A program made the translations under genes and the position numbers. This document shows positions 2-33,591 of a DNA stretch of 35,818 bases, piece by piece. Source of the stretch: an uncultured Elusimicrobia bacterium (GTDB lineage: Bacteria > Elusimicrobiota > Endomicrobiia > Endomicrobiales > CAIRNS01). Numbering within the stretch: position 1 is the first letter of the stretch; each line of letters opens with the position of its first letter. The DNA lies in NCBI GenBank assembly GCA_903880015.1, contig CAIRNS010000002.1:146867-182684 (forward strand), written 5' to 3'. Under the pieces are notes generated by a model. The model was not told where the DNA came from. It saw nothing but the letters and a program-made list of their open reading frames with translations, and did not search any database.

Positions 2-3000
2 TTTAAGCAGGTGTTGGCCGATCTTTCCGGCTTTACCTATTTTCGTTATTTGAGAGAGAACGGCATCCCCGCCGGAGTGGCGGTTATTGCGGCCATCAGT
101 TTGCCGGTCGCGCTGTCAGTATGGTTGTTCATTTTCACCGGTGCGGGCCCCGTCGTATCCATTGTGGCCGGGTTGGTGTTCGTATACGGGGTGTCAAAAA
201 TATCTGCTCAACTTTCTCGTGCGCGTATGTTGTATAGCCGGCAACTATCCGGGGTCAATCCGCGCTGGATGGTGCTTGTTTCTGTTGTGGCGGGGACCGC
301 TCTGCTGTGGGCAGCTCGCAGCACTCTTGCGCCGGTGGCTATGATAATCGGATCGCTTCTGGTCATAGTGATAGCTGCTTCAGGCATAACTATTTCAGCA
401 GTATCCCTGATGAAACCATCAACGCCCGCGCAGCTTTCCGGTGGCGATGCTGCTCGGTCCCGTAAAGCATTTATAATCGCATGGGTTGTTACGGCACTCT
501 TTGTAGTCATTGATATACTCCGCTTTAGTTATCTCTCAACTGTTTTGTCCTCCATTGCCGGGGTTTTCGGCGTGTCCCTTTTGGCAAGTTCCCCTGCGTC
601 AATCGTTATGGTGTTCTTTACAGCACTTATGATGCCGTTAGCATTGTATCGTTTGTTAAGCCGCCGCGAGAGGACGAACGGAATTGCGCAGACGGTGTCT
701 CCCCTTGGGCTGCGAGTGCCAAGCAGTGTCAGGCGCGATTCAGCGCAATCGCTCCTCGCATCAATGGCGCTTGACCGCGACTACGGCCCAGATCACCGGG
801 ACTTTGTTGATGATGCTCTGGCTGATCCGGTTGCCGGCAGTATTTTCCGTCTTAAATCATCTGACTGGCCCCGCTGGTCGCTGGCGGGATTGTACCTGCC
901 GGAAAATACTAATCCTTTTTCGCTTTCTGCCCCGTCCGGTAGGGCGGATGGTGCGAATACTCGTGTTCTGTGCGAAGAATTCATTCGGGAAACCCTTTCT
1001 GCAGATGTATGGAACGAAGACAAAGACCGCGGTATTTCCCGGCACGACTGGATTCGCGAAGTTGTCGGGTGCGCTGCACACATGAACAAAGCACAGGTGG
1101 CGGGTGCGGACATTTTAAGGTTCTTCGAGCTCATTCATGAGGACCCGTCGGGGATGACATTCAAGTCGCGTCAGATGCTTCTGCAGCGGCTCACGACGGT
1201 TTACGAAGTCACCGTGCGCGAAAGCAACGGGAAGGAAATGCTGCACGGGTACGATCTTCTCAAACGAGTGCCTCGGGACTCAGCTGAAAAAATTCCTGCG
1301 TTGCCTGCATATCTTAACAACTTGCTCAGCATGTTCAACAGGACGAGCAGAAAATTGATGACTCCTACAGTGCCCGCACTCGAGAAACTCTATGAATCAG
1401 TTTTCAACGGGAACATTCCGTTGTCGCGGTTTATTCGGACGGTCGGCGAAATGACAAAGAATGAAATCAACGGGGAGTATGAACGATTCCACCGATTCGA
1501 AATCAAGCCTTTGATGCTTGCTAAGGCTTTATATACCAGTTCCCCTGACGATGCCCTCGCCAATGCGCTTCTGGGCGCGCTGGCGCACTTTATACCTCCC
1601 GATTCGGAAAGATCTCCGGTAGAAAGCGCGCGTGCCTATCTTGTTGGATTCGCAATGCGAGATACCACCGGGGCCGGGGATAACCCTGCGGACAACAGTG
1701 AGCTTGCGCGCAATTTGTGTGGTGCGCTCAATACGGTGATGGCGACTTTCCAGCCGCAGCTGATGCAAAGACCTTTATTCCTTGGATCCGCAGAGCGCAG
1801 GCAGAATCGTCTTTTAATGGAATCCTCATTTAGCGGGGCGATACTCAGTGCGGAGCCAGGGTTTAGCCGACTTGAACGTGTCTGCAGGATAATGCAGGAA
1901 GATTTTTCATGGAATACCCAGGAAGACCCTGCTGTTCTGGGCAAGATTATCTATCAGGAGCGGGTTATCCCGGCCTGGCTGCGTGAGCTGGTCCAGAACG
2001 CCCGGGACGCGATCAAGGGTGCGGCTCGCATAAGTACTTCTAAAATAACCCCGAAAATAGTACTGCGCAGTGACGAATCTATCCCTGATACTGCGGGCCG
2101 TTCGTGGTGGTATGTGACCATCAGCGATCCTGTCGGTATGTTTCTTGCGACGGTAACCCAGGATCTGTTTTCTCCCGATGCAAGCACAAAGAATTTTCGC
2201 CGCGAGTTCGTCCGGATAGTCAATGAGAATGCACTGCTTCCGGCAAGCGAGCGCCTTGACATTACCCAGTTGGCAGAAAAACTCAGGTCTCTTTTCGTCA
2301 TGACCGACTTTAGGGATACGCCGGAAATAGTGTCCGTACAGGAAATAATAAATCTTCTCAATGATCCTCGTTTCTCTGCCGAACTTGCTGAAGAGACTAC
2401 CAAGGAAGACAGCATCATTTCCCGGTTTGAGCAGACGCACAAGGAACAACTCGCGCGTCTTTTTGCCGGAGAATTCGGGATGGGATTTTTTACCGTTTTT
2501 GCCGATTCAAACGAGGTTGTGGTGCGCAGCGGGCGAAACGGAAAACTGTATGATTTTGTGTTGGAGCCAATACGGGTCGAGGGAAAGCTTGTCCTGCTGC
2601 GATTGAAATCGACCACGGAATATGCTGACCCTAACGGAGAATATAAAGGGTCGTCTATTCGCTGGGGTTTTGAAATAACTAAGGACAATCGGGACTCACT
2701 TGAACGCCGTCAGCAGGAACTGGCTGATTATGTCCAAATTTTACTGGGGGGCGTTCAGGATTGCGAGATTTTGTTTGCCGAGAACGGCGCGGAAGAGGGG
2801 CGCGTATCCGATCAATTTGAAGAACCATGGGACAAAACTGAACAGCTTACGGTCAAGATGAGCAAATATCACATAGCGCGCGTAACCTGCGATCAGTTGT
2901 ATTTAACCGATCCCCGCTTGATGCTTGAACTGTTGCCTGAACAAATCGGACAATGGCTCATTCGTGAAGGCGTTAATCTGGACTTTGCGAAAACAGCACA

Positions 3001-6000
3001 GCTGAACATTGACCGGAACAGTTTTAATGATGCTCCTCATTGGCGGATGGTGGCGACTCAGCAATTAATTTTTGCGCTTGCCCGGCAGTGGCGTGCGGGA
3101 ACATGCGTGATTCCGGGTCTCCCATCTTATGCGGACTTTTTGCGCACGGCGCCCCGTGCCGATGATGTTTCCCCGGAAGATCGTGCAGCGGCAGATATGC
3201 TGATGAAGAGTACGGATGCGACCGCGTTCAATGAGCTGATGCGTAAGCGCTTCGCCGGGATGCAGGATTTTTCGCGTCTTTTGTGTCTCGCGGAGACACC
3301 CGGAACGGATAGTGCACTTGAGTCCAGAAGAAAACTGTGGTACGATTCCGCGCCTGCGGATCTTGCGCATACCGAACTACCCTCCGGCACGATGAACTCG
3401 CAGGACCCTTTCCACGATAGAGAAATCTTTTCTCATGAAGTGCTTCTCATGCTTATGACCGAATGGGCACGCCAGGCCGTCAAAGGGAAAGAAACGCTTC
3501 CGATTGACGGTGCTGAGGGAGAACAACTCGCACAGCAATTGCGCGCAAAAAATGTTGCTGTGGAACAAAGAATTCGCGAGGACACATCCCATTCCCTGTG
3601 GCGCTCAGTGGCCCTTCATCTGCCGATTCCCGAGATTGGCATGTCGGCATATGTGGCCGCGCGCGATCCCGGGACGGGGCTTGCTTTACGGCGGGCGCTC
3701 GACGCCAGCAATGGGCAGCCCGCGCTCATGCTATCCCTGCTGCTCGGAACTATCTTCCCTCCGGAGGACGGCAAAGAAGCGGTCACATGGACATTCACTG
3801 CCGCTGACAAAGATATTTTCTCTGCCTTGAAACGTTATTCACGCGGACTTAAGGGTTCGGATATTGCATTGGTTGAAGCTTTAGAATCAGCGTCGCACGC
3901 TCGTATGAAGGATGCGGATGCGCGTAAATCCAAGGAATACATTTCCGAGAATATGCGCGGGATGATTATGGACGGCAGGTTCAGGACTCTGCTCATCGGT
4001 GAGTTCGGATTGACCGGCGCTGAGGCTCAAGCAGCAAAGCTTCAGTCCTGTTTTGCCGATGCGCCATTGTTTGAAATGGAAGTAACTGCTCAATCGTCTG
4101 CCACACAACATCCCGTAAGCTCGCTCTGGCGCGGGCTGGGCGATTTCAATGTTTTCGGCGGCCGCGACAATGTTGTTCTTTCGGCAATAATTCTTATCGG
4201 ATTAGCGGTGTTTGGCCCCGTGGCCCTTATTTGGGTAGTTCCGACAGTTGCCGTACTTTATGGGATACTTATGGCTGCGCGCGAGGCCCGCAGGTTTCGC
4301 TCAGCGACCGAACAACGGCCGTTCTCGCCGAAAATGTTTATCCGTTATGCGGTCAATACGCTTTTCACTGATCCCCGCCATACTCCTTTTACGGTTGTTA
4401 CGGTTATCGCGGCCGCGATAACCGCTTTTAGCGTTCTACCGGTGGCAACGCTGTTCGGCATCCCGGTCTTTTTGCTTGTGCCGTCGCTGTCCCTGCTCGT
4501 TGTCTTTTTGTTCAAGTTTTTTTTGTACCGCCGTGCCGAGCATTTCGGCATTTCGCGCCACACTTTCGATCGCAGGGTTGTCAATGTGTTGAAAATAGCG
4601 CTTATGGTATGCGCATTCACCCTCAGTTTCTCTACTGCAATCGGTATTCCTTATCTGAGTATTCCGGGCGACCTTGTCGGTCTTTTCTTGACAACATATA
4701 TTCAATCTCTGCCCGCGGGGCTCCTTGTCGTCAGGGTGTTGAGCACGATCCTTGCATCGCCATTTCTGACGATTATTGTGTGGGTCTTCGCTGCCGAAAC
4801 CGTCGGACTTGTTCCCGAATCAATCCTGTGGTTGAGCGCTGAGGAAGATCATGTCAAAAAAGATATTCTGAGCATCGTCGATCGGGACGAAATCGTTCGG
4901 TTCCCCGGACTTACCCCGAACCTCAAGACCGCATATAAAACGACGCTTGCCCGGTTTCTTGCCCGCAATCCGGTCTTATTCGCCGCTGTCCGCGCCAAGG
5001 CAGCTGAAAAGCATACTGATGGTTTTTCCGCGCTTGAGCATGCGGTGCTTTTGCAAGAAGCTACCACTGTTCCCGGAGCAAGCCGCGCTGCCCGCAATGA
5101 AGCCGTCCGGCAAAGCGCGGCGTCCCTTCAAAATATTCCTGATGAGATCATCACCGATGCCCTTGCGGTGATGCAGGCAGAGATCGACGCGCGCATCTCG
5201 CGGATTCCCTCCGGACAGGCATGGAGCATGCATCTGTGGATGATGCAGGCGCAGCGCAAAGAACAACGGCGCCGGCTCAACCATGATTTCTCTCTTGGTT
5301 TTATAGATACTGATCATTCCACAATCTATCGTCGAATTGACGCAGCCGCCCGGCGGCAACAGGGCCGGATACCGTCAATCCTACTGGGGGCAGCCCGGTT
5401 TGGCTTCAAAGTGATGCTCAAGATAGTGCGTTGGACGGGTGAAGTTGTCCTCTTCATTCCGTTGGCGTATACATTCGTCCTTCAATATTATCTTGACGGA
5501 TTTACCGCCCTCCTGCCCATTCATCTCAATACCGAAGAATTGCTTTTCACGCATCCCTGGATAGATAGAAATTGGCCCTGGGCAAGCGGATTGATACGGA
5601 AGGCGCGGGCGCGGCTTTACCATCGGTCGGATGCCCCACCGGGCGCGGTTAGGCGCATTGGGTTGTGGCTTGAAAGACGACTGCCGCAGGGAGTCCCGCT
5701 TATAGATGCATGGGAAAGCCTGGAAATTACTGAAACGACCGGCAGAACCATTATCCCTCTCAATCGCCGCGTCGAGCGTGGATTGTCCCGTTCTCCGGTG
5801 TTCCGGCTTGCCGGGTTCTTCTGGGAACGCGGGGTTATGTTGAACGGCACCGTTAATTTCCTTATCCGCCGCGGGTTGGCATGGAGCATTGGGAACCTGT
5901 TTAGTCCGTTAATACAAATGCTTCCCGAAGCAGGGTTTAAGATAGGGCAATTTATCGTTGCTCTTCCCGGCACTGTCCGCTATAATTGGCAGGGGATTAA

Positions 6001-9000
6001 TTTTGTTTTTGACCTTTCTTTGCGCAAGATTGCGTCTGCGTATGTCCTGATTTCCGGCATCATGCTGACCGACCAGATAACGCGCGAAATCGATTGGTTT
6101 ACCGTTGCCTTTGATAATAATGTGAGATCACGCAAAGGCATGGGGCGTCAAGTTCTCGGCATTGCGCCGCTCATCTTGCTTTCATTCTGGCATCTGGTTC
6201 TGTCGCTGGCGATGATTCTTGTCCGCGCGCTGGTCATGTGGCCGCAGGTTTGGTTCACACAGACGGAAGTGAGCGGATTTCTCAGTTTCGGCGATATGTT
6301 GTCGGCCCGTACCGGGTGGGCGGGATTTAGAAACTTCTTTGCGGTTTTTGAAGGCCCGGGCGGGGCCATGGGTGTTTTTCCACTGATTGTAAAAGGTTTT
6401 TTTGCAGATACGGGAGATTCGTCGACACCAGTGCTATGGTCAGGAAAGTCCGAGCAGGGCAGTGCTGTTTACTATCCCCTGCACGATGTTGCTTATCGCG
6501 ACGGAACATGGATTGTTGATGGGAAAGCATTGTCGTCATCGGCAATTCCTGATTGTTCTATCCCGACCCCTCTTGAGGCCGGTTTCGGGTATTCCACCTT
6601 TGCAGCCGTAAAAATATTTAATGAAATTGAAGGAAAGGGCATCCCCTTCGCCGCCTGTTACGGTCCGGCTGTTTTCAATGCGCGGCAGGCGGATACAGCC
6701 TCGCCAGAAACGGGTTGGTCAGAGCATCAGGCGAGTAGTCCCTCGAATGCAACGGCTTGGTCAGCCTCAGGCAATGTATCTCTCCGGTTTATCGAACAGC
6801 TGGCGGGCGATCATGTCGTATTCGCTCAATATCTGTATGAAATAGGGCAATTGCCTGCTTCCTCAGACCTGCAGCATGATTCGCCGGCGTCATTCGCGCG
6901 GCTGGTTTCCTCGTCAGGAAATATGACTATCATTCAATCGATGTTCCAAATCGTTACAGACAATCGGGAGGCGCTCAACGCCGGCAACATTACGCCACAG
7001 GATCGCGCCGGTCTCGTAGAGTTCACGGACACGATTGAAATGGTCCTGCGGGTTGTTTTAAATGATCAGGCGGTAACCTATGCCGAACGGCTGAAGATTA
7101 ATAAAGCATTGGCTCCCGCCCCCATAAACAGTGTGGCGGAAGCAGCCGCACTAAATAACTCTTCCCCGCTGCCAGTCGAAAAGGAGCTTTACGCTAAATT
7201 TGCTGGTATGCCGCCCGCCGTGGGTACTTTTACAAATCTTTTACCAATGGCAACCATGCTTGATGATAATTGGTATGATTATCAGTATGGAAAAACCTCT
7301 TTGCGGGCATATATTGTTGACAATATCTTTGTCTTCGCCGGCAAAACACCTGATGATCCAGCGTTACGCCAGGCCGTGGTCCGCTTTTCTGCAGTCCCGG
7401 CGAATATATCACTTATTGTTGGTCCGTATGAACCCCGCGACGGCGGTATAGAAAATGCAAAAACACAGGCCCGGATCGGTCAATTTATGGTGCCTGCATT
7501 TCGAAATCCCCTTACTCCACCGGAAATACTGGAATGGTTTTTTTCCAACGCGAACACCACTGATTTGACACCGGAGAGAATGAGTATTCTTTTGGACAAT
7601 CCGAACATGAGCGAAAGAGTAGGAAAGCTTATTATCGAGCGGACAATCCATCCAGACCAAACAGCCGTGAAGCAGGATCCAAAACGAGAGATGAATGAAG
7701 TAGATACTACTCTTATTGCCAAATTGCTGACGCTTAGCTACATACCTCCGAGTCTGGTTGCCGCCTGGTTGCCGCTTCTTGATACGGGCGGGTCAATGCA
7801 AACAAAGGAAAGAGTTACCCTGGCGTTAACGACAAAATCGCCCATCGTGCGTGAAGCTCTTATGAATTCGACTACTGAAATTGTGCGCATTGCCTTCTTT
7901 GGCGGTAATGAAACATTGACCGCTGATGAATGGAAGAAAGGGATGTCCGATTCTGTCGATGTTCGCCGCGCGCTTTTGGGGCTTTTCCCGAATGTAACGA
8001 ATCAAGAGATTCAACAGTCAATTCTTCGCGAGCGCTCAGAAATCCGTTTGAAATCTCTGACGCCTGACATGCAGAAACTTATTCTTGAAGAGATGGCGGG
8101 CGCCACTGATCCAGCATTTGTTGACAAGCTCAGCGAAATCACGCAATCACCGGAAATACTTACCGAGCTCGCTCGCCGGGGCGCCTCGCCGGTGGTGGTG
8201 ATGAATAACCCGGTAGTAACTGATGAAGCTGTCAAGATGATTTTCGGAGGAATCCATGCTCCCGACAAGAATGGTAATTCTCTCCCTATCGATAATGCTG
8301 CCCATGCTCTTGCAGTGGAATCACTGCTCAAGATTACCGCTTCGCCTGAACTTATCTCGTTCGTTGCCGGAGATGATTCTCCCGCAGTTGCACAAACGGT
8401 CCTTGAGAAATTCGGTATAACCCGGGAAAAAATGGCTCGGATTTTTCTGTCAGATTCTCAGACACCTCTGTTAGTTGCCGGGTATCCAATGGGCAAGATT
8501 GACGGGCAAAAACAATATGTAATCGAAGCGGATTCGAAAAATAGCGGATTAATCAACGCTATGATTATGAACCCGCAAACCCCGGCTGAGGTGCTCCTTC
8601 ACCTAAAAATCTATAGTCAGCAGGGGTATATATTCCTGTGGCAGTTTGGGTGTGTGCGCGCAGCAGCCATATTCCCAGAAGCCTATCGTGCAATGCTTCA
8701 AGATCCTAATCACTTTGAAAAAATTACCCAACCTGATGGGGGTGTCTCAAAAGAAATATTTAATAAATACCTCGACCCGGCAGGGGGGATTTTCACAAGC
8801 CTTTTAAGTGATACGGAGCGCACTTTTGACACAATGACAGTTCAAGATAAGCTCAATCTCATAGACGCCGCACAGTCAGATGATTACGCGCATCTTTCCG
8901 ATCAAGAAAAAATGGCCATTTTCACTTTTTTTTCTACCGACCCCTCTCCCATCGTTTCCGGTCGTGCGGCGGCCCGTTTCTCAACCATTACCGGGACAGC

Positions 9001-10657
9001 ATCTCCCTTGGCGCCCGGGCGCCCGTCGGCATCTTCGGCATCGATTCTTGGAGCCCTGCCGTCTATAATAGTGGCCGGGACTGTTTTTTCGGTATGGATG
9101 TTGGTTCATCTCATAGTTCGGGCATTCGACAGAATTCCATCGATGGGTGTCATCGCGGGCCGCGTGAAGCATCTGGTTCAGTCTAGGCCGCGAACACTGT
9201 TTAGCAGGCAGCCGGTTCTTCACGTTGTCGAGACGCCCGCGGGGTCAGCGATGGCCGTTGTTTCAGAGAATCGACGGGGAAAAGAGATTGTTGCACAGCT
9301 TCCCACCATGGATTCTGTCATTATTTCCTTTGACAGACCGGTCTGGGGTGCCCGTACTGTCGAACATTTGTTGGTAGTAACTGAAGCGGGCAGAAGCATT
9401 TTGGTTCCCATTAAAATTTTGCGTCGCGGGAAAACCGTTTGGCTTTTTGTCGATGTGCGGGCCGCCGGTGTCAATCAAGCAAGCGCAGTCCTTAAAGAAA
9501 GATGCGTCGCCGGGATGGTGCGGATGTCCTATGGCGTGCCCGGTGTACACGGGTCGGCGGCGTTGAGAAAAGCGGTTAACGGGAGTTCCGATATCGAAAC
9601 CGTTTCTATGCAGGCGCGCCCCCCCGGCATGCTCATTGTCACCGAGAACGGGATATTCGACGGGGCGACACGCATATCCGCTGAGCTTGAAAGAACGGTC
9701 ATTTGCAGGATTGCCGCGAAAAACGATATTCCTTCGACTGTTGCAAAATACGATCTCCTCAGTACTGATGACCAGTTGGGCCGCGTCTGGCAGGACTACC
9801 CGTCGGCATTGTCCCGAAAAGAGAACAATGCCAGGGAACAGATAAAAAAATTGGTCATAGAAATTAAGGCAGAACGCACTTCAGATGAGATAGATATGCG
9901 CTTGGGCGCGGCACGCGGGGCAGGCAAAGATGTTCTGCTTTCATTCGGCCCGGATGCATCAATCGATCAAATCACCGGGACACTGACCGCTCTTCGAGCA
10001 CGGTATCATGACATCAGTATCACGGGAAGCATAGATTTCAGCCGACTCAAAAATGGCAAAGTGAGAGCATACCTGAAACGGCTTGCCGCCACGGAATGTT
10101 CCGCTGGCGGGCCTGGACTGTGCATCGACGGTGCCGGTCTCGCGCAGGACGATATCATAAAAATTGCTCAGGCAATTGAGGTGGAGCGTGAGGAAATCAG
10201 TGCGAACGACATTTTGCTTGGTGCGGTCCAAAAACAATCTGTTCAATATTCGAAACTCACGGTGATACTGCCCATTGGTATAGACGGATCCGTTATCTCC
10301 CGATTAAAAAATTCCGGCGTTGCAGTGATTATGGATGTCCCTGCCGCCGCTATCTCCTCAAGTGGGGTTGCTGCAGGAATTGCCGGCGTTCGTGTATCCG
10401 GATTGTCCAAAGATATCGATCCGTTTGCCTGTGCCTACGGTATCCGTCGGATAACAGTGTCGCTTGCCATCGTTGACGCATTTGAACTGGAAAGCATGGT
10501 TCGAGCCGCGAACGGCGCACTTGACGAGAAGCGCGCCATGGAGGGCGCTGCCTTGTTCACATTCCTTCAGAGCGATGCAGCTTTCGAAATAACTGTACAG
10601 GAATCGTTAAAAGTTGGCGATTCGCATATGACGGACCTCTTTCTTCAGGCCGCTTAA
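2..10657 (+). CDS. Giant multi-span membrane protein with Hsp90-like GHKL ATPase core and LRV-like repeats (5' end beyond window)
   Basis: At least 3548 residues. The frame stays open to the left edge, so the GTG at 11 (residue 1 here) may not be the start. Visible in order: hydrophobic spans at about 18-62, 84-133, 153-170 and 179-216; a soluble part; then a GHKL ATPase signature at about 640-930. This has an N-box LRELVQNARDAI with E659 and N663, an ISDPVGM box with D706 and G709, and the lid motif GEFGMGFF at 820-827, which closely resembles Hsp90 GQFGVGFY. More membrane spans lie at about 1387-1420, 1460-1507, 1527-1600, 1810-1837 and 2047-2082. Repeats of the type NPxTPxEVL at about 2490-2870 resemble leucine-rich repeat variants. 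A span at about 3012-3040 precedes a 500-residue C-terminal part that I do not recognise. ATP binding is inferred from motifs; the function is unknown. No frameshift is evident. Confidence 0.85.
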   Translation, partial: FKQVLADLSGFTYFRYLRENGIPAGVAVIAAISLPVALSVWLFIFTGAGPVVSIVAGLVFVYGVSKISAQLSRARMLYSRQLSGVNPRWMVLVSVVAGTALLWAARSTLAPVAMIIGSLLVIVIAASGITISAVSLMKPSTPAQLSGGDAARSRKAFIIAWVVTALFVVIDILRFSYLSTVLSSIAGVFGVSLLASSPASIVMVFFTALMMPLALYRLLSRRERTNGIAQTVSPLGLRVPSSVRRDSAQSLLASMALDRDYGPDHRDFVDDALADPVAGSIFRLKSSDWPRWSLAGLYLPENTNPFSLSAPSGRADGANTRVLCEEFIRETLSADVWNEDKDRGISRHDWIREVVGCAAHMNKAQVAGADILRFFELIHEDPSGMTFKSRQMLLQRLTTVYEVTVRESNGKEMLHGYDLLKRVPRDSAEKIPALPAYLNNLLSMFNRTSRKLMTPTVPALEKLYESVFNGNIPLSRFIRTVGEMTKNEINGEYERFHRFEIKPLMLAKALYTSSPDDALANALLGALAHFIPPDSERSPVESARAYLVGFAMRDTTGAGDNPADNSELARNLCGALNTVMATFQPQLMQRPLFLGSAERRQNRLLMESSFSGAILSAEPGFSRLERVCRIMQEDFSWNTQEDPAVLGKIIYQERVIPAWLRELVQNARDAIKGAARISTSKITPKIVLRSDESIPDTAGRSWWYVTISDPVGMFLATVTQDLFSPDASTKNFRREFVRIVNENALLPASERLDITQLAEKLRSLFVMTDFRDTPEIVSVQEIINLLNDPRFSAELAEETTKEDSIISRFEQTHKEQLARLFAGEFGMGFFTVFADSNEVVVRSGRNGKLYDFVLEPIRVEGKLVLLRLKSTTEYADPNGEYKGSSIRWGFEITKDNRDSLERRQQELADYVQILLGGVQDCEILFAENGAEEGRVSDQFEEPWDKTEQLTVKMSKYHIARVTCDQLYLTDPRLMLELLPEQIGQWLIREGVNLDFAKTAQLNIDRNSFNDAPHWRMVATQQLIFALARQWRAGTCVIPGLPSYADFLRTAPRADDVSPEDRAAADMLMKSTDATAFNELMRKRFAGMQDFSRLLCLAETPGTDSALESRRKLWYDSAPADLAHTELPSGTMNSQDPFHDREIFSHEVLLMLMTEWARQAVKGKETLPIDGAEGEQLAQQLRAKNVAVEQRIREDTSHSLWRSVALHLPIPEIGMSAYVAARDPGTGLALRRALDASNGQPALMLSLLLGTIFPPEDGKEAVTWTFTAADKDIFSALKRYSRGLKGSDIALVEALESASHARMKDADARKSKEYISENMRGMIMDGRFRTLLIGEFGLTGAEAQAAKLQSCFADAPLFEMEVTAQSSATQHPVSSLWRGLGDFNVFGGRDNVVLSAIILIGLAVFGPVALIWVVPTVAVLYGILMAAREARRFRSATEQRPFSPKMFIRYAVNTLFTDPRHTPFTVVTVIAAAITAFSVLPVATLFGIPVFLLVPSLSLLVVFLFKFFLYRRAEHFGISRHTFDRRVVNVLKIALMVCAFTLSFSTAIGIPYLSIPGDLVGLFLTTYIQSLPAGLLVVRVLSTILASPFLTIIVWVFAAETVGLVPESILWLSAEEDHVKKDILSIVDRDEIVRFPGLTPNLKTAYKTTLARFLARNPVLFAAVRAKAAEKHTDGFSALEHAVLLQEATTVPGASRAARNEAVRQSAASLQNIPDEIITDALAVMQAEIDARISRIPSGQAWSMHLWMMQAQRKEQRRRLNHDFSLGFIDTDHSTIYRRIDAAARRQQGRIPSILLGAARFGFKVMLKIVRWTGEVVLFIPLAYTFVLQYYLDGFTALLPIHLNTEELLFTHPWIDRNWPWASGLIRKARARLYHRSDAPPGAVRRIGLWLERRLPQGVPLIDAWESLEITETTGRTIIPLNRRVERGLSRSPVFRLAGFFWERGVMLNGTVNFLIRRGLAWSIGNLFSPLIQMLPEAGFKIGQFIVALPGTVRYNWQGINFVFDLSLRKIASAYVLISGIMLTDQITREIDWFTVAFDNNVRSRKGMGRQVLGIAPLILLSFWHLVLSLAMILVRALVMWPQVWFTQTEVSGFLSFGDMLSARTGWAGFRNFFAVFEGPGGAMGVFPLIVKGFFADTGDSSTPVLWSGKSEQGSAVYYPLHDVAYRDGTWIVDGKALSSSAIPDCSIPTPLEAGFGYSTFAAVKIFNEIEGKGIPFAACYGPAVFNARQADTASPETGWSEHQASSPSNATAWSASGNVSLRFIEQLAGDHVVFAQYLYEIGQLPASSDLQHDSPASFARLVSSSGNMTIIQSMFQIVTDNREALNAGNITPQDRAGLVEFTDTIEMVLRVVLNDQAVTYAERLKINKALAPAPINSVAEAAALNNSSPLPVEKELYAKFAGMPPAVGTFTNLLPMATMLDDNWYDYQYGKTSLRAYIVDNIFVFAGKTPDDPALRQAVVRFSAVPANISLIVGPYEPRDGGIENAKTQARIGQFMVPAFRNPLTPPEILEWFFSNANTTDLTPERMSILLDNPNMSERVGKLIIERTIHPDQTAVKQDPKREMNEVDTTLIAKLLTLSYIPPSLVAAWLPLLDTGGSMQTKERVTLALTTKSPIVREALMNSTTEIVRIAFFGGNETLTADEWKKGMSDSVDVRRALLGLFPNVTNQEIQQSILRERSEIRLKSLTPDMQKLILEEMAGATDPAFVDKLSEITQSPEILTELARRGASPVVVMNNPVVTDEAVKMIFGGIHAPDKNGNSLPIDNAAHALAVESLLKITASPELISFVAGDDSPAVAQTVLEKFGITREKMARIFLSDSQTPLLVAGYPMGKIDGQKQYVIEADSKNSGLINAMIMNPQTPAEVLLHLKIYSQQGYIFLWQFGCVRAAAIFPEAYRAMLQDPNHFEKITQPDGGVSKEIFNKYLDPAGGIFTSLLSDTERTFDTMTVQDKLNLIDAAQSDDYAHLSDQEKMAIFTFFSTDPSPIVSGRAAARFSTITGTASPLAPGRPSASSASILGALPSIIVAGTVFSVWMLVHLIVRAFDRIPSMGVIAGRVKHLVQSRPRTLFSRQPVLHVVETPAGSAMAVVSENRRGKEIVAQLPTMDSVIISFDRPVWGARTVEHLLVVTEAGRSILVPIKILRRGKTVWLFVDVRAAGVNQASAVLKERCVAGMVRMSYGVPGVHGSAALRKAVNGSSDIETVSMQARPPGMLIVTENGIFDGATRISAELERTVICRIAAKNDIPSTVAKYDLLSTDDQLGRVWQDYPSALSRKENNAREQIKKLVIEIKAERTSDEIDMRLGAARGAGKDVLLSFGPDASIDQITGTLTALRARYHDISITGSIDFSRLKNGKVRAYLKRLAATECSAGGPGLCIDGAGLAQDDIIKIAQAIEVEREEISANDILLGAVQKQSVQYSKLTVILPIGIDGSVISRLKNSGVAVIMDVPAAAISSSGVAAGIAGVRVSGLSKDIDPFACAYGIRRITVSLAIVDAFELESMVRAANGALDEKRAMEGAALFTFLQSDAAFEITVQESLKVGDSHMTDLFLQAA

Positions 10658-29802: not shown

Positions 29803-32800
29803 ATGAACGGGAAAAAAATCTGTGCCATCATTATCGCGGGAGTGTTCCTGCAGGAGTCGGTTCTGCAGCACGCGCTGCTTGCTGCCCAGCAATTGCTGCT
29901 GTCGGCACCGAGCCCCGTCAGGGGATCGATTCGTACTGTTGCCGAAGCCATTCCTGCTCGGTGGGGTACTGTCGTAGATCGTTACGATGGTTCTTCTGGC
30001 CGGCTGGTCGTACATATCCTGGATTTGCACGCTAATCCTCTTGCCCAGAAATCTATCGCACATATAATTCGCAATCTCCATGCAACACTTTCTGTTGACC
30101 GCATCCTTGTTGAAGGCGCACCCGCGGGGATTGTCGATCTCGGCACATTGCGGGCAATTCCCGCTCCTATGCAAGCGGGGGTCTATGATTTTCTTTTAGC
30201 GAAAGGGCTGATGAACGGCGCGGAATATGTATGTCTGCGGGATGGAATCAACCCCTTGGGGGGTCTTGAAAACTGGGAGGAATACCAAAAGGCCTGCCAG
30301 GAATATCGCGCACTACAGGACGCATGTGCATATTATGCCTCGACAGTTTCCGCCATGGACCGTGTGTGGTTTACCCGTGTTCGCCGCTACGGGTCATCGC
30401 GGTTGGCGCGATTTGAAAGCATGCGTGAGCGAGTGACTGATTCCCATAAACTGCTCGATCGGTTGGTGGCACTTTCCCGTTCCTGCAATATCCCCCTTAC
30501 GCCCTATCCCACTATTGTGCGCGTACAGGAAGCGCGCAACATGCAGCGTCATCTTAATATCCGCCGCATACAGGCGCAACTGCCACGCTATCTGCATATT
30601 CTTCAGAAGGATCTTCCAGCGGGGGCGTATAGAGACCTTGTAGGGGCTAGCGATGGTGTTTCATATTCCCGTCTCGCAGCGTTTGCTGTCGCCGATTCTC
30701 AGCGGAGAGAAGCGCTCTTTCCTGACCTCGCCCGGTATTTTTCCTATCTTGTTTTCAGCGAATCAATAAATCCGATAACGCTTCTAGATGAACAGGACGC
30801 CTTGACTGTGTCGATAGAAACGGCGATTGCGGTGACCCCGATTGATCAGCAACTTGCGGCAACAGGCAGTTATTTGCGCCTTCTGCGAGACGCGCTGAAC
30901 GCGAAACTAACGCCGCGTTCTCGTGATAGTTATGTGGCCGGCGCGATCGCAAACTGGCCGTTGGTCACTGCCTCGGCGTGGACCCCCGACAACGGGATGA
31001 TTGAATCGTTCATCGAAAGCAAAGCTATAGAATCATATTATGATACAGTCGCTGGCCGTAATGAGACATTCGCCCACACCATTATTTCCGCAGTATCCTC
31101 TGGGCCCGATATGAATACCGCGGTTCGCGGCTTACCGCAGGTTACCGTTGTGGTCACTGGCGGATTCCATCGGGATATCGCTCAATCGCTGCGGACAGCA
31201 GGAGTATCGTATGTCACAGTGGTGCCCGCAACTGCCTCCCCTGGCAACGATACGCTGTATCAGCACATCATGGCAGGCCACCTTGAAGCGTCAGATATTT
31301 CCGCGTCGGCGCTGATGCCTGTGTTGTTGGATATCGGCGTTGCGCAGGGCGATGTTACATCATTGGTCACCGTGTGCGCGGGAATGGTTGCTGAAAAGCG
31401 GAAACAGGGCCCCGTGACGCCAGAAATACTGTCCGCGTGCATCAATGAATGGGGAAAAAATATTACCGCTGCCGGGTTGATCAACAATAAACAGAAGATC
31501 AGCGCGCGGGTCGAGAACGGTGCATGCGTGGTGTCCGGCGGATGGGAAAACATCCGTATTCATTTGGACACCGTGGGTGCTATTTCTGGATACGAAAGCG
31601 TTGAAAGCGCACTAATCATTCGCGGGGCAGGGGCCGGCGAACCGTCATCCGTTCAGATTAAGCATCAGCGATTTCCCGATGGTGAAATGAACATTAGGAT
31701 TATGGATCCTGACGCGATTAAGGGCAAACCGGTAACGTTGTCCCATGCGGTGCGGACGGTTGACGATTTTATGGAAACAGTATTTATACTCGCGAACCTG
31801 CGCCGGTATGGCGCATCGCATGTGCGCCTGGAGGTTCAAGGCATTTTTCCGCGCAACGGGCTTGATGTTGTTCTTTCACTGTTGTGCAATGAAATATACG
31901 AACACGGCGCATTGGTTGCGGTTGAAAAATCATATGTGATTACACATGAAAAGAAAATAAAAAAACCGCGAAAAACCGATCTTGTTTTGTTTCAACATAA
32001 ACGATTGAAGCAAAATGCAATAGATACCGCCATGGATTTGCGCAATCATGGTTATTGGAACGTACCTGCGGAAAAAATTGAATTCAGTAAGCCCTCTGAC
32101 GATATCTCAAACTGGGAGATGGCAAGCACAGAAAAGCATAGAGGCCAGGATATTACTTTTATACACAGCACGGAAAATAACCTTGACATTGTCGAGTTGC
32201 TGCTCATGCTTGGACAGATGGCGAAAAACAATGCTACGCTTGCGGGCGAGACTGATATCAAGAACAGACCAAGCATACATTTAATGAATATATTTGAGGG
32301 CTATTCGCGTGCGGATAAGGAATTTGTACGCGGAGTCGGAATTAATGCGTGGACTCTCTTGAATATTATCGATCAGCTAACGGATTCTCACGCCACATTC
32401 AATGTTCATTATGGCAGCGAAAGCGGTAGGTTGTTCATTCAGGAAGGAACGGTTCGTGGGTTACGAGGACTCGATCCAGTTCATGCCAAAGATCTGCAGG
32501 AACCGGTCCCAAGGGGAACGATAGAACTTTTCAATTACAATGCATTCCCCAATTTGGCGGAAAAATTATTCGATACGATGGCGGTACAAATAGGGGTTGA
32601 TAAGAATATTTTGTCTGGAAAAACTACTGACTCCGCAGGAGCGCAAAGGATGCGGGACTTGCTGCTAAGTCATTTGAGGGAGCACAATGTTATTGCGATG
32701 GGCCCTGACAAAGGTTCCGAAAAATATGTCAAGGAGGCCGCTGTCATTGGGTTGCGCAAGTATGCCCGCGAAGTATATGGCATTTCAGAGGATGATGTGG

Positions 32801-33591
32801 AAAAATATATATTTTCTGGATCCATGGAGAAAGTGAGAACTGCCAGTGATCAGGTAACGATTGGTGCAGCACGTATTATTGATGCCCACGATAGGCTCGT
32901 GAAGGAAGAGGTAATTAAAAATGCGTGGATTTTTGTTTTAGATGATGAAACGGCAACAGGAGCGACAATTCTTTCGGTAGTATGGGCCTTGGTTAATACG
33001 CTTGGCGCAACATGGGGCAGAGTGTTCGGCGGAGTCGTTCATGGGAAATTCTCACGCGGCTGGGTGCCATTTCAAACAGGCATCTCTTTGGACCAACTGC
33101 GCGCTAATCCACAGCTCCGCCCCGAACCGCAGAATGCATTGGAGAATCGCCTGGCGCCCGCATTTATGGTGACGACCCTGTCCACGGCCATCCCTAAGGA
33201 TGTTCCCTCTAAAAATATTGTGAGCTTGGGCAAGATAATCCGTTATGCTGCGGAGCGTATACAGGGATTGCAAAATAAGGACATAGATGGGTTGATTCCT
33301 GATGCTGTCGAGTATGGATCGGCTCTCATTTTGTCCGGGATGACTGACGGGTCCTGGGGTATTTCTATCAACCATGGAGCATGGCCATTTGGAATTCCTC
33401 TCCTGTTTTTTGGTGTTGCGATCATGGTATTCTTTGGGGTTTATCTGAGTATCGAGCGTAGTGGAATACTCCCGTTCTGGCATTTGCAATCGCCCAATCC
33501 CATTGAACCTGGGGGTTACAAACAAGATTTTCACCCCCCTGCATTTCCGAATAGTATAGAAACATTCGCTGATGTTCTTGCGGCCGCATAA
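29803..33591 (+). CDS. Fusion of a ChaN/TraB-like domain and a PRPP-synthetase-like phosphoribosyltransferase domain
   Basis: 1262 residues with a hydrophobic, signal-like N-terminus. Domain 1 (about 60-480) has ILDLHANPLAQ with D74 and H76, a following ILVEGAP and a final VVTGGFH with H456, a layout like ChaN/TraB/TIKI-fold proteins. Domain 2 (about 600-1090) resembles ribose-phosphate pyrophosphokinase: RFPDGE at 623-628, GKPVTLSHAVRTVDDFMETVFILANLRRYGA, GPDKGS at 967-972 and the PRPP loop DDETATGATI from 1047. The RQDR-type ATP motif of true PRPP synthetases is missing (PRNGLD in its place), so the reaction is unclear. A membrane span lies at about 1197-1216. An AAGGA precedes the ATG. The enzymatic role is not known; the domain calls are by motif only. 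Confidence 0.75.
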   Translation: MNGKKICAIIIAGVFLQESVLQHALLAAQQLLLSAPSPVRGSIRTVAEAIPARWGTVVDRYDGSSGRLVVHILDLHANPLAQKSIAHIIRNLHATLSVDRILVEGAPAGIVDLGTLRAIPAPMQAGVYDFLLAKGLMNGAEYVCLRDGINPLGGLENWEEYQKACQEYRALQDACAYYASTVSAMDRVWFTRVRRYGSSRLARFESMRERVTDSHKLLDRLVALSRSCNIPLTPYPTIVRVQEARNMQRHLNIRRIQAQLPRYLHILQKDLPAGAYRDLVGASDGVSYSRLAAFAVADSQRREALFPDLARYFSYLVFSESINPITLLDEQDALTVSIETAIAVTPIDQQLAATGSYLRLLRDALNAKLTPRSRDSYVAGAIANWPLVTASAWTPDNGMIESFIESKAIESYYDTVAGRNETFAHTIISAVSSGPDMNTAVRGLPQVTVVVTGGFHRDIAQSLRTAGVSYVTVVPATASPGNDTLYQHIMAGHLEASDISASALMPVLLDIGVAQGDVTSLVTVCAGMVAEKRKQGPVTPEILSACINEWGKNITAAGLINNKQKISARVENGACVVSGGWENIRIHLDTVGAISGYESVESALIIRGAGAGEPSSVQIKHQRFPDGEMNIRIMDPDAIKGKPVTLSHAVRTVDDFMETVFILANLRRYGASHVRLEVQGIFPRNGLDVVLSLLCNEIYEHGALVAVEKSYVITHEKKIKKPRKTDLVLFQHKRLKQNAIDTAMDLRNHGYWNVPAEKIEFSKPSDDISNWEMASTEKHRGQDITFIHSTENNLDIVELLLMLGQMAKNNATLAGETDIKNRPSIHLMNIFEGYSRADKEFVRGVGINAWTLLNIIDQLTDSHATFNVHYGSESGRLFIQEGTVRGLRGLDPVHAKDLQEPVPRGTIELFNYNAFPNLAEKLFDTMAVQIGVDKNILSGKTTDSAGAQRMRDLLLSHLREHNVIAMGPDKGSEKYVKEAAVIGLRKYAREVYGISEDDVEKYIFSGSMEKVRTASDQVTIGAARIIDAHDRLVKEEVIKNAWIFVLDDETATGATILSVVWALVNTLGATWGRVFGGVVHGKFSRGWVPFQTGISLDQLRANPQLRPEPQNALENRLAPAFMVTTLSTAIPKDVPSKNIVSLGKIIRYAAERIQGLQNKDIDGLIPDAVEYGSALILSGMTDGSWGISINHGAWPFGIPLLFFGVAIMVFFGVYLSIERSGILPFWHLQSPNPIEPGGYKQDFHPPAFPNSIETFADVLAAA

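Follow-up and report, generated by a model that had tools for sequence, protein, structure and literature searches.

Sacsin, a eukaryotic protein of 4,579 aa, contains three Hsp90-like GHKL repeats, and behind each of them lies a middle-domain part in which an Arg is conserved (PMC3629688). A sequence-only reading of the DNA analysed here, which took modest-sized proteins to be the normal setting of GHKL domains, overlooked this protein. In Hsp90, MutL and GyrB, GHKL heads close together on ATP binding (PMC12733681). Giant ORFs of Omnitrophota and Elusimicrobiota have been described as coats, adhesins or in connection with surface catabolism in the available portions of the relevant papers, and those portions were found to make no mention of Hsp90 or GHKL heads (PMC10066038, PMC11573180, PMC12057145). 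Here we describe a giant ORF from an Elusimicrobia bacterium with two unlike GHKL heads, termed GHKL-1 and GHKL-2. In GHKL-1 the ATP-site motifs stand in a rearranged order, of which no earlier description was found in the literature searched.

The giant ORF and its leader

The window, by which we mean the whole stretch of 35,818 nucleotides analysed (G000:C2:146867-182684), comes from a 1.8 Mb genome, G000, that is 99.9% complete; all features of the giant ORF located below lie on its + strand. The ORF at 2..10657 is open at its 5' end; in contig C2 it begins 6,749 bases before the window, with a GTG at C2:140118. The full-length ORF (C2:140118-157523, GTG start to stop) encodes 5,801 aa, and its C-terminal 3,551 codons fall in the window, with the stop at 10657. 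The protein is thus giant, as had been proposed, and the earlier figure of at least 3548 residues is an underestimate because the ORF continues upstream. Pfam scans of the 3,551-aa window part and of ten ORF pieces returned nothing above cut-off, the proposed HATPase_c-type domain included, and a HATPase_c_3 search of the ORF's own genome missed the gene, so standard annotation is blind to it; a family profile compared with the PDB does match Hsp90s, as detailed below.

Around the ORF, the window contains mostly housekeeping, efflux and lipoprotein genes, with no dedicated regulator operon and no defence genes among them. GHKL/sacsin-like ATPases occur in conflict systems, and an anti-phage or other conflict-system role would fit that background. 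This reading was rejected, and is barely plausible, given that PADLOC produced no match to GHKL-2, GHKL-1 or the domain between them and that defence neighbours are missing.

Residues 68-511 form a leader domain common to about 15 other large ORFs of G000, which range from about 900 to 8,400 aa (8,368 aa at most) and in which it is mostly preceded by a signal-peptide-like segment. The leader was found in 61 of 295 phylum genomes, within ORFs of up to about 12,600 codons (e.g. G002:C4:81667-82686, in a 12,656-codon ORF), and could be a marker for giant ORFs of Elusimicrobia-type bacteria. Its consensus, D.H..P.VQ.NI ... EG ... GGFHT, resembles the Tiki/ChaN superfamily; one of 14 leader domains matches Cofac_haem_bdg (5.1e-4), and a search of the leader against the PDB was negative. 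Members of the family lie at window 29803-33591 and on G000 contigs C2, C7, C10, C11, C20, C23, C28 and C30 (L089-L102), and their C-terminal parts are unrelated to one another. These parts include diverged relatives of UDP-glucose pyrophosphorylase with phosphoglucomutase, cytidylate kinase, the SecA P-loop, glycogen debranching enzyme, PRPP synthetase, ROK and AAA proteins, several of which are nucleotide-using enzymes of the cytoplasm. The member at 29803-33591 is a 1,262-aa protein with a PRPP-synthetase-like domain (PF13793, 9.8e-6), a PRPP-binding-like motif (DDETATGATI) and a C-terminal TM span. Two other members, L096 (C7) and L098 (C23), have in common a 650-aa C-terminal region (43% identity) that is without a Pfam match.

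An Hsp90/sacsin-like head in the window

GHKL-2 occupies window positions 1805..3361 (full-length residues 2852-3370) and comprises a Bergerat N domain and a middle-domain-like part, as assigned by profile, AF2/Foldseek and NCBIfam. Its motif order is canonical (N-box E..N, G1 D..G, G2 GxGxG). By motif reading and alignment, the N-box LRELVQNARDAI, with the catalytic E and the Mg-binding N, lies at 1979..2014, the G1 box ISDPVGM, with the adenine-binding D, at 2120..2140, and the G2/lid motif GEFGMGFF at 2468..2491. The sequence-only reading had located all three motifs correctly, together with E659, N663 and D706 (numbered from a GTG at 11). The family alignment keeps RELxQNaxDA, DxxGM and GxFGxGFFT, and the catalytic E, N and D and the lid glycines are retained in every relative that covers the motifs; the loss of E, N and D from homologues, named beforehand as a refuting outcome, was not seen. 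This retention, together with the Hsp90 profile match, indicates that the motifs are not due to chance.

Two departures from Hsp90 noticed earlier also hold. The G1 box is one residue shorter than DxGxGM, and the shortened form is common to all relatives except L028 (DEGIGM). The lid glycine follows D706 by 114 residues, owing to an insertion at 2165..2467 that is recognized by alignment and AF2 and predicted, with low confidence, to be helical. The insertion is present in the target ORF and in L022, L024, L026, L063 and L031, and missing in L025, L027, L028 and L035, where about 30-36 residues separate the D from the lid; it is therefore an add-on.

Compared with the PDB, the GHKL-2 family profile matched TRAP1 (1.1e-9) and HtpG (1.2e-9) best, with TRAP1, HtpG and Grp94 matches ranging from 1e-9 to 1e-6. 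The AF2 model is of moderate quality, with an overall pLDDT of 64.8 that drops in the insertion; it has the Bergerat-type fold that had been expected, and Foldseek placed TRAP1 first (2.5e-6, prob 1.00), followed by GyrB, SMCHD1 and MORC, at low TM-scores (~0.3); the alignment to TRAP1 spans 511 columns. An Arg at 3014..3016 (R1005 in window numbering) is invariant across the family and lies where the middle domain of Hsp90 or sacsin should have its catalytic Arg, and position and local pattern make it a candidate equivalent. Among NCBIfam models, that of the sacsin domain fits best (NF047352, 1.2e-6), at 28.9 bits against a cut-off of 50. Pfam HSP90 (PF00183) had no match on the ORF pieces, and the search of G000 with it found a separate HtpG only. 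By profile and predicted fold, GHKL-2 is an Hsp90/sacsin-type Bergerat ATPase domain.

A second head with rearranged motifs

BLAST of the full ORF against its relatives revealed two conserved blocks, at residues 963-1395 and 2832-3515. GHKL-1 covers full-length residues about 945-1396, upstream of GHKL-2 and outside the window. The single Hsp90-like core proposed earlier thus corresponds to GHKL-2, and a second GHKL domain and a TM-bracketed transglutaminase-like domain had been missed. BLAST detects no similarity between the two heads. To our knowledge, no GHKL group described so far departs from the order N-box, G1, G2, and the sacsin repeats are canonical in this respect as far as we know. 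In GHKL-1 the order is N-box, lid (G2) and then DxGxGM (G1) in eight sequences (the target, L022, L024, L026, L035, L063, L064 and L067). The N-box is separated from a GxFGxGG-type lid by 15-22 aa, a gap too short to hold the G1 box, and G1 follows G2 after 132-157 aa. A sequencing or assembly artefact was rejected as the cause, since the eight sequences come from eight different genomes. In the literature searched, no GHKL case of a permuted Bergerat/GHKL domain was found; the matches looked unrelated, 'Bergerat' apparently being matched as a surname.

All three ATP-site motifs are present in GHKL-1. Invariance among the eight divergent sequences is limited to E, N and D in the N-box, three glycines in the lid with a Q and an L just behind them, D.G.GM and one P. 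For a test of block order, the sequences were split into blocks A (N-box), C (lid and the next strands) and B (G1); the native order, A-C-B, cannot be turned into A-B-C by circular permutation. In native order, the GHKL-1 profile matched Hsp90 at 6.8e-7, essentially through block C alone; rearranged to the canonical A-B-C, it gave a single collinear match to the Hsp90 N-domain at 7.5e-9. With block borders that were set with the motifs already known, A-B-C was the best of the six possible orders against four canonical domains: the HtpG of G000 (31.9 bits vs 12.9 in native order), the GHKL-a (42.1 vs 20.5) and GHKL-2 (26.1 vs 15.9) domains of L028, and the GHKL-2 of L035 (23.5 vs 6.9). The gain over native order, 10-22 bits, was lost when the columns of block B were shuffled. 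A fifth target, the GHKL-2 of the window, gave no match to the GHKL-1 profile, whatever the order of the blocks.

These results bear on the alternative that GHKL-1 is something other than a rearranged Bergerat domain, its N-box and lid-like stretch being a remnant and its DxGxGM a convergent motif of another fold. Such a reading would account for the significant native-order match through one block only, and for the structural predictions: a GHKL-1 homologue reached a pLDDT of 47 in AF2 (three sequences) and Foldseek gave no fold match, a poor outcome that is probably due to the scarcity of sequences. However, the invariant positions coincide almost completely with the ATP-site residues of the three motifs, full collinearity appears in the canonical block order only, and the G1 blocks of the two heads are alike beyond the motif (E 0.0012, at a low hhalign probability). 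A canonical-order counterpart moreover exists at the same place in L028, and we regard the alternative as quite improbable. GHKL-1 is best described as a predicted Hsp90-like Bergerat domain, judged from its sequence, with segments ordered N-box, lid/G2, G1.

The counterpart in L028 (G223:C16), a 3,848-aa protein, is one of two GHKL domains, both of canonical order, and stands at the GHKL-1 position. Its leader and the L063 leader share about 32% identity, and the layout is similar. On this sequence comparison the domain is probably an ancestral-type counterpart of the rearranged GHKL-1; with the related leader and the canonical domain in corresponding position, the exchange of motif blocks probably arose within the giant-ORF family. 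A family with exchanged motif blocks, in which one relative of comparable layout has the canonical form, would offer a test of Bergerat site assembly and of lid wiring.

Distribution

Relatives were sought in 341 genomes of the same phylum and were found inside other giant ORFs. Rearranged GHKL-1 occurs in 8 of these genomes, and all eight also have GHKL-2, in the same ORF wherever the contig allows. The giant proteins that carry the pair are about 2,100-5,800 aa long and come from scattered genomes of Elusimicrobia. The survey bears out the presence of GHKL-2 in giant ORFs, while the membrane spans proposed with it vary among members. In a named genome collection, GHKL-2 relatives belong to Elusimicrobia bacteria, one other bacterium and one Candidatus Firestonebacteria contig, a spread that suggests a place for G000 itself within the Elusimicrobiota; no homologue was detected in the 59 same-order relatives sampled. 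G000 has a separate, genuine HtpG of 635 aa, and a role of the giant protein as a replacement for Hsp90 was rejected for this genome. For the other eight genomes that carry the family, several of them incomplete, the search yielded no HtpG.

Membrane spans and the domain between the heads

A hydropathy scan of the window part predicted multi-span membrane blocks of about six spans each before (92..646) and after (4172..4804) GHKL-2, and single TM spans at 6170..6226 and 9062..9118. Between the heads lies a domain in which Cys, His and Asp/Glu are aligned in five members (the target, L022, L024, L026 and L063); in the target they are C1824, H1869 and D1888, a set in transglutaminase order. Three of the five domains weakly match Transglut_core in Pfam, at best with 0.0021 and below cut-off (14.8 bits vs 23 in one member). 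A phmmer search with the target domain alone was empty, and the domain profile had no match in the PDB. TM spans flank the domain in all five members, with a single strong span found between the heads in L022. The charges at the TM flanks in the target, L063 and L026 follow the positive-inside pattern that would place both heads inside and the domain between them outside. L035 and L067 carry both heads with no TM span at all, L067 being cut at the ends of its contig. Insertion into the membrane is therefore secondary and not a core feature. The membrane-embedded Hsp90-like machine proposed by the sequence-only reading thus stands as an Hsp90-like Bergerat ATPase in a giant polytopic protein, and not as an architecture with constant spans.

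The heads are most likely cytoplasmic, given the kept ATP-binding residues and the positive-inside flanks. The main open conflict of this placement, and an argument for exported heads, lies in the signal-peptide-like N-termini of the target, L022, L024, L026 and L028, because cleavage and export would put GHKL-1 outside, where ATP is scarce. The protein might accordingly be an exported scaffold, with the leader and both heads extracytoplasmic and serving, without ATP turnover, as binding modules of a cell-surface or contact-dependent protein. The signal-like segment and leader at the head of at least 15 other large ORFs in G000 agree with export, as do proposals, in the available portions of two papers, that giant Omnitrophota ORFs are surface or predation proteins (PMC10066038, PMC12057145). 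The conservation of E, N, D, the glycines and the middle-domain Arg in divergent relatives would, however, be unexpected in dead scaffolds, and the charges around the inter-head domain point the opposite way. The many nucleotide-using enzyme-like domains of the leader family are also hard to fit to an ATP-free exterior, and we consider export of the heads rather unlikely. An ATP/ADP translocase, considered as a source of periplasmic ATP, is absent from G000.

A possible clamp across the membrane

With the heads placed in the cytoplasm, the 5,801-aa polytopic chain would present two Hsp90-family-like heads on one side, and the transglutaminase-like domain, being bracketed by TM spans, would lie on the opposite membrane face. 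Binding of ATP might then close the two heads on each other, in an intramolecular version of the Hsp90/MutL/sacsin clamp, and hydrolysis would reopen them. The TM helices on their flanks could transmit this movement to the domain on the opposite face, or movement of that domain to the heads. An arrangement with two unlike heads on one membrane side and the intervening domain on the opposite one suggests an intramolecular clamp whose closing would move these helices. By analogy with known clamps, an ATP-driven, two-headed clamp in one chain that is coupled across the membrane is the most likely function, at about even odds. A more specific version is possible, though we put it forward tentatively: GHKL-1 may be a functional Bergerat ATPase with its last two blocks swapped and the unlike partner of the canonical head, the two forming a heterodimeric clamp that acts across the membrane on the transglutaminase-like domain. 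If true, this would be a new class of transmembrane Hsp90-type machine.

The same topology, with ATP-binding heads on one side and a bracketed domain on the other, is also sensor-like. The transglutaminase-like domain could sense outside and modulate the heads, giving a nucleotide-dependent output without mechanical work, as in sensor histidine kinases. But GHKL-2 resembles Hsp90, sacsin, GyrB and MORC and not histidine kinases, Pfam found no DHp/HisKA, receiver or HATPase_c match on the ORF pieces, and the genes around it in the window include no regulator operon; signalling of this kind is improbable. The function of giant ORFs in Elusimicrobia-type bacteria is an acknowledged gap. For some of them, an architecture in which a TM-bracketed enzyme-like domain separates two unlike heads of Hsp90 type in one chain offers a concrete hypothesis, with the clamp as the preferred reading.

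Comparison with known systems

The protein resembles sacsin as a giant chain with several Hsp90-like GHKL modules, and no NCBIfam model matches GHKL-2 better than the sacsin one. In contrast to sacsin, that match falls below the curated cut-off, one head is rearranged, the heads are unlike by BLAST, and a TM-bracketed transglutaminase-like domain lies between them in five members. Hsp90s (HtpG, TRAP1, Grp94, Hsp82) are the best sequence and fold matches to GHKL-2 and share with it the Bergerat N domain, RELxxNaxDA, G1 and the GxFGxGFF lid; behind these, GHKL-2 has a middle-domain-like part whose invariant Arg is a candidate counterpart of theirs. Unlike them, the protein is a polytopic giant with no Pfam HSP90 match, a shortened G1 and a variable G1-lid insertion, and no C-terminal dimerisation domain was identified in the giant ORF. 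MORC, SMCHD1, GyrB and MutL likewise combine a Bergerat fold with a transducer in an ATP-driven closing clamp, and GyrB, SMCHD1 and MORC appear in the GHKL-2 Foldseek list; the giant ORF differs in having two unlike heads in one chain and no DNA-processing partner domains.

The inter-head domain shares with the Transglut_core superfamily the order and spacing of Cys, His and Asp/Glu as well as the bracketing by TM spans, whereas it scores below the Pfam cut-off, has no PDB match and is fused between two GHKL heads. In its great length, few recognisable domains and several TM helices, the protein is like the giant ORFs of Omnitrophota and Elusimicrobiota, as far as the available portions of the descriptions go (PMC10066038, PMC11573180, PMC12057145). 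The lack of an HSP90 Pfam match, the missed sacsin cut-off and the failure of GHKL-1 to follow the GHKL motif order keep it from being filed with Hsp90 or sacsin. It would work like a clamp of the Hsp90/sacsin type, and counts as a new variant of the GHKL kind.
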